Assembly: GCF_009833495.1 (NCBI RefSeq)
Contig: NZ_WUWG01000001.1
Location: 806,001 to 870,000, forward strand
Direction of reading: 5' to 3'
Length of the DNA: 64,000 nt
Source: Oceanomicrobium pacificus
Lineage (GTDB): Bacteria; Pseudomonadota; Alphaproteobacteria; Rhodobacterales; Rhodobacteraceae
Each line of letters starts with the position of its first letter. Positions within the stretch are counted from its first letter, which is position 1. The notes beneath the pieces were generated by a model, which was not told the DNA's origin, did no database searches, and was given only the letters and a program-made list of their open reading frames with translations. Of this stretch, positions 22,409 through 27,193 are shown piece after piece. The position numbers were made by a program, and so were the translations under genes.

Positions 22409-22474
22409 CAAGGTGGGGTCACTGCCTGCGTGCACACTCCCCCGACCCCGGCAACAGATCAAAGGTGCGTCCCC

Positions 22475-23209
22475 GTGTCCAGCAACAAGCCTTTCGCATG
22501 TCGTCCAGATGTTCCTATCGCAGCGGTATCAGGTCGCTGCGCGGCACTGGCGCTGGCCGGCGCCATCTGCGCGACGACCGCGTCCGCGCAAGAGCAGGAA
22601 AAATCCTCTGACGATCCGACGAAGATCGCCACGAAGGCCGGCATTTCCTACACCGATGAGGCGGCGATTTCCGGGTCACTGGCCTTCGGTCCGGCCACAA
22701 AGGTCAATGCGCGCATCTCCGAGAGCGGGCAATGGTCGCTCGGCGCGTCCTACCTCTTTCCGTTCGGCATCGTGACCTTCTCGGCCTCCAGCCTGGAGTT
22801 CGACAATGAAGCGTCGCAGACGCGCTATTCGCTCGGCGGCTTCATCCCCGTCACGGCCATGGGTGTCCGGACCGGCAACTGGCAGGTTTTCGTACCGTTC
22901 GGCTACACCTACACGGAAGGCGAGGTCGTGGTGTCCGCCCTTGGCATCGAAGACCCGTTCTTCGTCGATGTGAACAGCCGCAGCGGCTATACCGGCCTCT
23001 TCGCGATCTATCCGTTCAACGAACAGTTCACGCTTCTGAGCGGCGCCGTGGGCACTGTGGGCACCGACGATTTCACCGGCATATCGCTCGGCACCGGCCT
23101 GTCCTACCATTTCACGGAGCAGGACACCCTGTCCGTTTTCGCGAGCGTCATCGACAACAGTTTCGGCAGCCGCGACCGGCTGGGCATCTCCTACAGACGC
23201 GAGTTCTGA
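22475..23209 (+). CDS. Outer-membrane beta-barrel-like protein
   Basis: About 244 residues from a GTG preceded by AAAGGTG; an in-frame ATG at 22430 is possible but lacks a ribosome site. A signal peptide (hydrophobic AALALAGAICATTASA, residues about 22-38) precedes a mature part of alternating polar/hydrophobic strands rich in Tyr, Phe and Gly, such as WSLGASYLFPFGIVTF and LGTGLSYHF. It ends in aromatic Phe (YRREF), a hallmark of Bam-inserted barrels. About ten strands are plausible. No precise family is recognised. It follows the histidine kinase by 66 bases and might be a target or simply a neighbour. Confidence 0.65.
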   Translation: MSSNKPFACRPDVPIAAVSGRCAALALAGAICATTASAQEQEKSSDDPTKIATKAGISYTDEAAISGSLAFGPATKVNARISESGQWSLGASYLFPFGIVTFSASSLEFDNEASQTRYSLGGFIPVTAMGVRTGNWQVFVPFGYTYTEGEVVVSALGIEDPFFVDVNSRSGYTGLFAIYPFNEQFTLLSGAVGTVGTDDFTGISLGTGLSYHFTEQDTLSVFASVIDNSFGSRDRLGISYRREF

Positions 23210-23648
23210 GGGGATCGGTTGGTTGGTCGGAACATTCCGAACTTTCGGTCCTGTACCGGCAACACAAGGATTTTAAGGCTTGAGAGGCCGCACCTGCATG
23301 AGCGCAGCCACGATCCGGCGACCAAGCTTTTCACTATGGATTGCCAGCAAATTCGGAAGCATGCCTCGTCCCGGAATTTGGATGCCTAAAACAAAACGGA
23401 TTATCCGACATTTCCGCCAGCCAATATGCGCAACATAAACGTTCGCGCCTTTCATGGCCGATTTGCGACATGGCTCGCCCTAAATTCTCTTCTGCACACC
23501 CACGTGGCCATCTGGCCGTCACGTTGCGTTCTGAAACGAAATATTCTGAAAAAAACCAGCGTGCCGATCAATTGGCATCACCATTTCTTACCCGGTTCAG
23601 AATTGGATTCCTCGTGGGAGGGAGCTCAAGCGAAGATCGGAGTTGGCG
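23210..23648. other. 439-base low-GC intergenic region
   Basis: Clearly richer in A and T than its flanks (runs such as TTCTGAAAAAAACC near 23550). Short frames of 60-105 codons exist on both strands but lack ribosome sites, family resemblance or coding bias typical of the neighbours. It may carry promoters for neither flanking gene, since both flanking genes end here (barrel gene stop at 23209 on plus, OprB stop at 23649 on minus). It is likely decayed or imported DNA. Confidence 0.5.
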
Positions 23649-24848
23649 CTAGAAAACAACCCGCGCCCGCAAACCGAGGATCGTCAGGTTATCCGACGCC
23701 GGATCGAGGAGCGGGTTCGAGATATACTGGATCGATGGGGTGATCTGGACATCGGGCGAGATGTTGAAACGATAGAAAAGCTCCGATGTGAACTGTGTGT
23801 CCTCGATCCCGCGCGCTTCGGCCCAGTTGAAGCCGATCCCGGCGAGGTCCGTGTTGCGGCGATACCAGCCCAACCCGGTCGAGAGGGACCGTTCGTAGAG
23901 CGCCGCCGTGCCGTCCGACCAGCCGGCGCGCAGGAAGGGCATCCACTGGTTGTCGATGAACCAGGCGGCTGAGAGGGCCAGCCCCTTATCCTCTGCGCGG
24001 GAGCCGTCCTCGGCCGCATCCGACTGCCATGCCGTGAGGTGGATATTGTCGAAATAGAGCCGGTCGGACCCGCTCGTGTAGCCGAGTTCGAGGGATTTGA
24101 ACGTCTCGCCGGTCCGGAAAACTTGTGCATCCGGCTCGGCCGGGTTGCCATTGGCATCCGCGATTGCGCCGACAGCATAGAAATTGTCCCCGATCCTTGC
24201 CCCACCGGCGATGCCGAGGCCCGGATTGGGTGCGTTGATCGTGGGGTTGGTGTTGAAGGCAAGGTTCTGGAAGGCGGTATAGGGGCTGACCATTCCGTAG
24301 ACATCAAGGAAATCCGTCACGTCGATCTGGCCCAATTGCAGGGTCCAGCGTCCGTCCGGGTCGCGCTGGGTCCAGAACAGGTTTGTCAGTATCGTGCCAC
24401 TGTCATTGAACGCGGTGCCGGTAATGGAAAGCGCGCCGGTCTCGAAGCCGTGGAACTGCGGCGCCACCGCGCCATAGGCCTGCCGGTTCTCGACCTTGAA
24501 GGTGAGGCTGCCGGTGTCCGTCGCCTGCCAGGCCCCATAGAACCGGAGGATGCCACCGCCGGCGCGATCTTCCCCGAGGTCGCTGTCGCTCCACTGGCCG
24601 AGCGCGAGATAATCGAGATTGAACCGGAGACCCTGTTCCGCAAGCCCGTCCTTCCAGGCAAACCCCTCCTGCATAACGCTTCGCGGGAAATCGCTGCGCG
24701 GTTGCGGATCGGTCAGGCCATCGCCCGGCGTCAGGTCCGCCGCGACCGAGGAAGGGCCGGAAAGCCCGCCTTGCGCTTGGACCGCCGCCGGCATGAGAGC
24801 CGCCGGGAGCAAGGCAAGGGCCAGAAGGAACCTTTGGGTCATCATCAC
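23649..24848 (-). CDS. OprB-family carbohydrate-selective porin
   Basis: An outer-membrane channel for sugars, 399 residues. Signal peptide: hydrophobic residues 6-22, cleavage after VQA near 25. The barrel part has OprB features: WKDGLAEQGLRFNLDYLALGQW near the start, a long GQIDVTDFLDVYGMVSPYTAFQN segment, and C-terminal ITPSIQYISNPLLDP followed by a strand ending RARVVF with final Phe. Upstream on the same strand lies the truncated amidohydrolase, 190 bases away. Together with the AraC remnant it may be left over from a small catabolic cluster. It looks intact itself. Confidence 0.85.
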   Translation of the reverse strand: MMMTQRFLLALALLPAALMPAAVQAQGGLSGPSSVAADLTPGDGLTDPQPRSDFPRSVMQEGFAWKDGLAEQGLRFNLDYLALGQWSDSDLGEDRAGGGILRFYGAWQATDTGSLTFKVENRQAYGAVAPQFHGFETGALSITGTAFNDSGTILTNLFWTQRDPDGRWTLQLGQIDVTDFLDVYGMVSPYTAFQNLAFNTNPTINAPNPGLGIAGGARIGDNFYAVGAIADANGNPAEPDAQVFRTGETFKSLELGYTSGSDRLYFDNIHLTAWQSDAAEDGSRAEDKGLALSAAWFIDNQWMPFLRAGWSDGTAALYERSLSTGLGWYRRNTDLAGIGFNWAEARGIEDTQFTSELFYRFNISPDVQITPSIQYISNPLLDPASDNLTILGLRARVVF

Positions 24849-25038
24849 TCCAGTTCGTTTCCGTCGTGGTGCAGACTGTCCTCGGGACTGCGGATCGGTT
24901 GCCGGCCAGACAGTCGGGCTCCGTCGAGACGGACGCGTGGCTCCACATCCGGACGGGTGGACACATGTTCACCGTTGGCCGGTTCCCCCAACTCGGCAGA
25001 AATGGCGGGCGCGCCGAAACTAGCGCGGCCCGCCCACC

Positions 25039-25848
25039 TCACAGATTGCCGAAATAGGCATCGCGTTGCGGACCGGCCGGCTGGAAAGCGGGCGCGTTCT
25101 CGTCGGGCAGCCAGTTCTTGTAGACCAGACCGTCCTTCATCACGAAATCCACATTCTGGCGCAGGATCGCGTCCAGATCCTCCAGCGGGTTGCCATCGAC
25201 AAGGATGATGTCGGCATAGCCGCCCTCTGCAATCGTGCCGAGCGTCCCGTCCTTGTAGGGATTCATCCCGCCGCTCCAGCTCAGCACTTCCGCCGCGTTC
25301 GACGTGGCCGTTTTGAGCGAGAGCAGGTTGTTGTTCGCAACCTTGTTGAACCAGAGCACATTTTCGGCCTGCCGCACCACGTCAGGGCCGAACATGTCGC
25401 CGCCGGTCACGATGAGCACATCATGCTTGATCGCCCATTCGAACATCTGCTGCGCACCGGCATTCACGGATTTGGCCTTGGCCTTCTGGTCGGCGCTGAA
25501 GAAGGTGATGCCTTCCGGGTCGGCAAAGGCTTCGAGCGACATGACGGCTTGCGCCGACAGCGCCACGCCTTCCTCCTTCATCCGGATGATGGTCTCCTCC
25601 GAAACCAGAAAATTGTGATCGATGACGCGCACCCCGGCGTCGATGGCGCGGTTCACGGACCGGTCGTGATAGGCATGGACCAGCACATAGCTGCCATAGT
25701 CCTTCGCCACCTCGACAATGGCCTCCAGTTCCTCGACCGACATTTGGGTGGCGTGGATCGGGTCGAACTGGCTGGCAACCCCGCCGCCGGCCATCACCTT
25801 GATCTGGGTGGCGCCGGCACGGAAATTCTGCCGCGCGGCACGGCGGAC
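25039..25848 (-). pseudogene. Truncated metal-dependent amidohydrolase (C-terminal 269 residues only)
   Basis: The reading frame encodes the C-terminal half of an imidazolonepropionase-like amidohydrolase: FRAGATQIKVMAGGGVAS, then HAYHDRSVNRAIDAGVRVIDHN (metal-binding His residues), TGGDMFGPD with the catalytic Asp, and GTIAEGGYADIILVDGNPLEDL near the end. Family members run to about 400-480 residues with the first HxH metal motif near the N-terminus; that part is absent. Going upstream, resemblance stops abruptly at about 25848, where sequence of an oppositely oriented AraC gene begins. With no metal-binding HxH and no start region it cannot be a working enzyme. The break is best explained by a deletion that removed the 5' parts of two divergent genes. 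Confidence 0.8.
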
Positions 25849-26721
25849 ATGCTTGCCGATCCGTCTGCCCTTGCGCCGGCCAATTCGATCTACCGGTTTG
25901 CGGAACTGGCGGCACAGGAACTGGGCGATCCCCATCTGGGGGTGAAGCTCGGACTGGATCCGCGGATCGTCAAATGGCCTGTCATTGCGGATGCATTTTC
26001 GGCATCGAACGTGATGGTCGAGTTCTTCTCGCGGTTTCTGCTCGACGCGCAGAGGTTCACGACGCGCGTAGAGTTTCACCTCCGGATCGGTGCGGAAACG
26101 TCCTGGTTCGAGCGCGACCGCGGCTTCATGCCGGCCGACAGCCCAGCGCAGATCGACGCTCTGTCGGTTGGCCTCTTCGTGAACATCTTCCGACTTGTAT
26201 TGGGCGACGGCTTTCAGGACAGGGAGATGCTCTTCCGGGTCTGTGCCCCCGAGGTGGCGCGCATACCGGCACTGGGTCAGTGCGCGCTGATGAAGGGGGA
26301 TGCCCGGAAGTTTGCTTTTTCCTTCCCGTCCGAATGGCTGGTGCTGCCCATCCGTCAAGACCGCGACGCGGCATCGCCGCGCCTGACCAACAAACCGCCT
26401 TCGGAGTCGCTGATCGCGGCCATCCGCTCGAACATCCGTTCCAACATGGCTGATCCCGGTTTAGGTGTGCCGGCGCTGGTTGCCCAGATGGGGTTCAACC
26501 GCCGCGCGGTGCAGAAATACCTCCGCGATCGTGGTTCCGGCCTGTCCGACCTGATCGAGGAAGAGCGGCAGAAACTGGCTTGCGAGCTGCTGGACGCGCA
26601 GGCCATGTCAGTAGAGGAGATATCGGACAGGCTCGGCTACACCGACGTGTCCAATTTTTCCCGTGCGTTCCGACGGTGGACGGGTTTGGCGCCTTCGCGG
26701 TGGAGGCGTGAAGGTGATTGA
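25849..26721 (+). pseudogene. N-terminally truncated AraC-family transcriptional regulator
   Basis: From an ATG at 25849 about 290 residues can be read. The ligand-binding domain of the arabinose-binding-like type (PF12625) starts late: the typical AxxxGDPxLGL element, usually near residue 65, is here near residue 28 (ELGDPHLGVKLG), so about 35-45 N-terminal residues are missing. The C-terminal AraC helix-turn-helix pair is complete (VPALVAQMGFNRRAVQKYLRDRG and SVEEISDRLGYTDVSNFSRAFRRWTG). The DNA-binding half could still be made, but without its promoter and N-terminus function is doubtful. It adjoins the truncated amidohydrolase head to head, which was probably its target gene. Confidence 0.7.
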
Positions 26722-27117
26722 AGATCTTAGATCCAATAAGAATCTATCATTGAGGCGAAACACCAAATTAGAAAGCACTCAATCAGCGAAATTTTCAGCG
26801 TGCCGGCGAAAAAAATAATAAAAGTATACGTATATAGAAAATATATCAAGTAATTCAAAATTTGAGATTGATATCCATTGATAAATTCACGAATGTAATA
26901 TTTATTGTTATCACCTTAATATTCGGGAAGCAATTTTTTTTGCAGTCACTGAGTCCAACCAAAGAACCGACCCTGCATCTAAGCTGATCCGGAGGGTGGG
27001 GCGCAGATATCATGGCGCTGACAGCAGACCACTATCTACACCACCCAGAAAACGAGGTGTGTCATGATGGGCGCAACGAGTAAACACCAATTAAGTCATT
27101 GAAATTATTAGGGTGGA
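26722..27117. other. AT-rich island beside tRNA-Ala (396 bases without a gene)
   Basis: GC falls to about 22% in 26821-26940 (26 of 120 bases), against about 65% around it. It contains a perfect 10-base palindrome TATACGTATA (26825-26834) and poly-A and poly-T runs. No frame of useful length is open; tiny frames at 27012 (23 codons) and near 27063 are not supported. It lies on the 3' side of the minus-strand tRNA-Ala, the side where integrative elements insert, but no duplicate of the tRNA 3' end was found in the window. Confidence 0.7.

Positions 27118-27193
<76 letters not shown>

Follow-up and report, generated by a model that had tools for sequence, protein, structure and literature searches.

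Head-to-head remnants of an amidohydrolase and an AraC-type regulator gene in Oceanomicrobium pacificus probably mark a deletion within a divergent gene pair

Gene loss through short deletions is commonplace in bacteria. The kind is well described, for instance as gene loss by deletion in Salmonella (PMC3386194) and as pseudogenes in intracellular bacteria (PMC2374718). Among enzymes, the closest described relatives of the gene treated here are the prolidase-type structures 3feq/3n2c and 3mkv. An intact orthologue from another genome (G038) matches 3feq_A with an E value of 3.4e-61 over 406 residues, whereas the copy in our window lacks the N-terminal part that carries the HxH motif. The window is a stretch of 64,000 nucleotides of O. 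pacificus (contig C1, positions 806001-870000). The genome, 99.43% complete, comprises 3,255,458 bases on 10 contigs. In this window, an enzyme remnant and a regulator remnant lie head to head, with the following features:

23649-24848, minus strand: OprB-type porin gene, intact and next downstream of the enzyme remnant (OprB, E 2e-16)
25039-25848, minus strand: 3' remnant of a prolidase-like amidohydrolase gene, about 270 codons including the stop (Amidohydro_1 profile and identity to orthologues)
25843-25851, no strand: the join (Pfam borders at 25851 and 25843, protein and DNA alignments, switch in codon usage)
25849-26721, plus strand: AraC-type regulator of 290 residues, short of about 40 at the N-terminus (Pfam and alignment of relatives)
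25039-26358, minus strand: chimeric open frame of 439 codons, enzyme remnant plus antisense AraC, not proposed as a gene
25066-26721, plus strand: chimeric open frame of 551 codons, antisense enzyme plus AraC, not proposed as a gene

Relatives of the enzyme were sought in 394 genomes of the family, and the family was also searched for relatives of the regulator. We fetched 20 stretches, of which 12 hold a divergent AraC/amidohydrolase pair, seven hold no such pair and one is the window itself. With our own genome excluded, five intact close orthologues of the enzyme were detected (E up to 1e-70; G007, G038, G180, G239 and G343). The remnant is 82-84% identical to these proteins and the identity ends at the join. 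Its minus-strand frame, which runs downward from about 25851, joins the Amidohydro_1 profile as late as position 95 of 345 (E 1.7e-22). Compared with the G007 protein of 469 residues, the window covers residues 200-469 only, that is, about 199 N-terminal residues are gone. Beyond the join point, all five orthologues continue with the remaining N-terminal half and its DMHSH motif, and in the protein alignment the remnant has nothing that corresponds to the DMHSH of G007, G038, G239, G180 and G343. We take this HxH motif to provide the N-terminal metal ligands of the amidohydrolase. The remnant retains the conserved Lys, His, His and Asp residues further along the protein (in QIKVMAGGG, VHAYHD, IDHNF and GGDMFG), which are presumably metal ligands as well. 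Because start and HxH motif are lost, the remnant is most probably inactive. A search for the missing half throughout the O. pacificus genome yielded paralogues of 30-40% identity as the best other matches, and the half itself was not found.

The first-pass annotation of this DNA had read the amidohydrolase likeness as stopping at about 25848, with AraC likeness starting right there, and had proposed an alignment with intact amidohydrolase/AraC pairs. That reading agrees with the Pfam borders at 25851 and 25843 (window positions calculated from residue numbers) and with the end of the identity to the five orthologues, and borders and alignments together place the join at 25843-25851. The two homologies meet head to head, and their Pfam matches overlap by about 9 nt at the most. 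Either gene could claim codon 25846-25848, so that the assignable overlap amounts to 0-6 nt, which would fit short homology at the deletion ends and equally well chance. At the break, the enzyme frame reads VRRAAR, aligning with EARRAAR or EVIRAAR of relatives, and the AraC frame reads ADMLADP, aligning with SKDMLRDP of the G239 regulator. Codon usage was scored for each frame in 150-base steps, as a log score relative to eight neighbouring genes. In the enzyme frame it runs at 0.32-0.38 per step as far as the join and at -0.00 to 0.15 from there to 26688. A mobile element at the join was considered and rejected: the repeat listing is blank there and Rfam gives only a tRNA.

The geometry of intact pairs was measured in the 12 of the 20 fetched stretches that hold one. 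Each of the 12 has 870-1053 bp between the points that correspond to either side of the join (904, 907, 877 and 870 bp in the four loci with a close orthologue of the enzyme, at 80% identity or more). Since all 12 intact pairs show such a distance, one loss of about 0.9 kb is enough to explain the locus, and we give a probability of about 0.78 to the reading that one such deletion inside a divergent AraC/amidohydrolase pair left two remnants, dead or nearly so. Possibly through slippage or end joining, it would have cost the enzyme gene its first two fifths and the regulator about 40 codons, along with the promoter region that lay between them. The remnants of enzyme and regulator would thereby have been left joined head to head at about 25848. 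The downstream porin gene is complete, though the promoter of the pair is probably lost to it. A single event, an original partnership with this AraC gene, a recent date and a loss of function are each something we infer, and the scar looks like ordinary gene loss.

For the claim of one deletion in a regulator/target pair, which the first-pass annotation had also made, the pair itself is supported by the geometry of the 12 loci and by a divergent AraC neighbour beside four of the five close enzyme orthologues (G180 has none next to its enzyme). That a single event occurred and that the remaining AraC gene is the enzyme's own regulator are presumptions that go beyond this. The AraC remnant is 22-31% identical to all partner regulators of amidohydrolases and 28-29% identical to the best non-partners, and the regulator tree, which omits the insertion-cut G007 regulator, leaves it unplaced. 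Alternatively, a larger deletion or rearrangement could have brought an AraC gene of another neighbourhood up against the enzyme, whose own regulator would then be wholly lost. Such an origin would account for the low identity of the regulator to every partner although the enzyme is so close to its orthologues, and the top-scoring relatives of the AraC remnant outside its own genome (G016 and G109) have no amidohydrolase beside them in the fetched stretches. However, true partners are equally dissimilar: between G038 and G239 the enzymes are 86% identical and the regulators 29%, and between G038 and G343 the values are 78% and 26%. As the partners of close enzymes are this unlike one another, AraC identity cannot decide partnership, and we dropped it as proof of a separate origin. 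Orientation and spacing moreover agree with a simple deletion, so that we regard an AraC gene of other origin as unlikely and retain the deletion within an original pair.

The same comparison touches on a separate matter. Regulators of 26-29% identity beside enzymes of 78-86% identity occur at L035:6253-8877, L067:4456-7013 and L065:4554-7142, while the G038 regulator and the G007 regulator fragment are 50% identical. This suggests that the regulator beside this enzyme has been exchanged or is diverging unusually fast, and such turnover beside near-identical enzymes would matter more than the scar. In G007, within L034:5865-7780, the AraC partner is cut at about L034:6249 by an insertion that carries a DUF772/DDE transposase. 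The AraC/amidohydrolase pair has thus been disrupted differently in the window's genome and in G007, where the loss of the regulator is a second, independent one.

To judge the age of the break, we counted changes in 264 gap-free columns across six rows (the remnant and the five intact enzymes); dN/dS ratios were set aside, dS being saturated or undefined for many enzyme pairs. The remnant differs at 3 of 178 sites that are invariant in the five intact enzymes, and leaving out each intact enzyme in turn gave 4/179, 2/177, 4/179, 7/182 and 16/191. By this count, the remnant has evolved like an intact gene through nearly all of its separate history. Since it carries no decay, the deletion looks recent, although the same lack of decay would follow equally from a misassembly or from a fragment on which selection still acts. 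An assembly or misjoin artefact, with an intact pair in the real genome, would be in keeping with the undecayed enzyme remnant; yet the contig that contains the join in its interior is 1,228,696 bases long and belongs to a nearly complete genome, in which the lost half of the enzyme has no further copy, so that there is no repeat to cause a misjoin. We therefore consider an artefact highly improbable, and a recent deletion remains the preferred reading.

The regulator has lost much less than the enzyme. On the plus strand, Arabinose_bd extends over about 25843-26349 with the profile entered at position 15 of 185 (E 1.2e-10), and HTH_18 over about 26479-26709 with profile positions 2-79 of 80 (E 3.9e-16), leaving the DNA-binding domain whole, as originally annotated. 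If the first plausible Met in intact frames (about 330 residues) is taken as the start, the N-terminal loss is about 39-45 residues, in line with the earlier figure of about 35-45. The underlying alignment comprised 16 intact relatives and one regulator cut by an insertion element, and the G249 frame entered it with its initial 150 residues trimmed off. The statement that the 5' halves of both genes are missing holds for the enzyme and overstates the case for the regulator (about 40 of about 330 residues). The scar had further been called unusual for its ATG at the join. This finds no support: ATG 25849-25851 aligns with the internal Met (D-M-L) of the intact G239 partner regulator, an ordinary internal codon, and a consensus scan gave no sigma-70-like site between 24800 and 26791, which is weak evidence in this bacterial group. 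The codon-usage score of the AraC remnant (0.135 versus 0.27-0.38 in the eight neighbouring genes) speaks against a typical highly adapted gene without demonstrating decay. The shortened regulator may be silent or may be produced at a low level from some other promoter. An operator-like pattern composed by eye matched five times (at most three mismatches) against a mean of 0.89, with no match within 24849-26721, and carries no weight.

The least probable readings concern a function of this fragment. That the shortened AraC does work as a regulator, as a natural short form or re-purposed, would suit its 290 open codons, whole HTH and ATG, as well as the QhpR model (NF049968, NCBIfam; 284 positions), which starts close to the start of the remnant (match residues 12-286) and above whose cut-off the family search, used as a check for short forms, found L096 and L097 without the usual first helices; but we deem it very unlikely, since the QhpR match of 111.1 bits falls below the curated cut-off of 250 and thus outside that family, all 16 uncut aligned regulators have the extra N-terminus, and the ATG is a family-internal Met with no promoter-like site near it in the scan. 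Just as far-fetched is the idea that, with the N-terminal helices and the old promoter gone, AraC has come under new control and would bind operators of this pair or of a paralogous pair, such as the intact one on contig C4; if true, a new regulatory variant would have arisen with the scar, beyond mere loss.

Across the join, each frame reads on into the antisense strand of the other gene, for 170 and 261 codons. TTA, CTA and TCA, whose complements are stops, make up none of the 270 enzyme codons and two of the 290 AraC codons, and the two frames are in register; the long chimeric frames are open because these codons are rare and the reading frames coincide. In the 551-codon frame, the upstream antisense part scores 0.03 in codon usage, versus 0.27-0.38 in the eight neighbouring genes. 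The chimeric frames are no evidence for a fused gene. They are an annotation hazard, as software could call the 439- and 551-codon frames as full amidohydrolase or AraC proteins.

The porin gene occupies the same place and order in G007 (81% identity). GC-poor spacers at 26722-27117 and 23210-23648 (GC 0.45-0.56 in 500-base steps) bound the block of porin, enzyme and regulator, the right-hand one ending at a tRNA-Ala (27118-27193). A tRNA-linked island with a repeated tRNA end was rejected, as the window has the 20 bases of the 3' side of this tRNA just once and the O. pacificus genome does not repeat 26722-27117 anywhere. A search for an empty site via the CAP protein gave matches in 30 of 61 genomes (best 39% outside the own genome) and a tRNA in none of six scanned loci, and a scan of genome contigs returned one weak locus. 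Among plasmids, the protein search reached about 27% for AraC and about 41% for the enzyme at best, and the DNA search returned eight records, none covering 80%. To the left of the block, 22430-23209 encodes a protein of 259 residues with a final Phe as in outer-membrane barrels and with no match in Pfam or NCBIfam.

Elsewhere in the same genome, the short contig C4 (L039, G000:C4:1-8891) carries an intact paralogous cluster of an AraC gene, two amidohydrolase genes and an OprB-like gene, the AraC protein being 88-90% identical to one in G005. Because this related cluster remains intact, loss of the pair in the window may be tolerated.

Set beside known systems, the locus matches the AraC/amidohydrolase/OprB clusters of G343, G239 and G007 in gene order, orientation and the orthology of enzyme and porin. 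In contrast to the window, both genes are whole in those clusters except for the AraC gene of G007, and their regulators are distant from the one found here. With short-deletion gene loss, of the spontaneous, RecA-independent kind and as seen in pseudogenes, the window shares two genes cut at one point, missing sequence that occurs nowhere else, and a join without an inserted element. The scar has little importance beyond good annotation. It differs little from that known process, and does so in that both 5' ends of a divergent pair were hit, so that genes and promoters were lost together.
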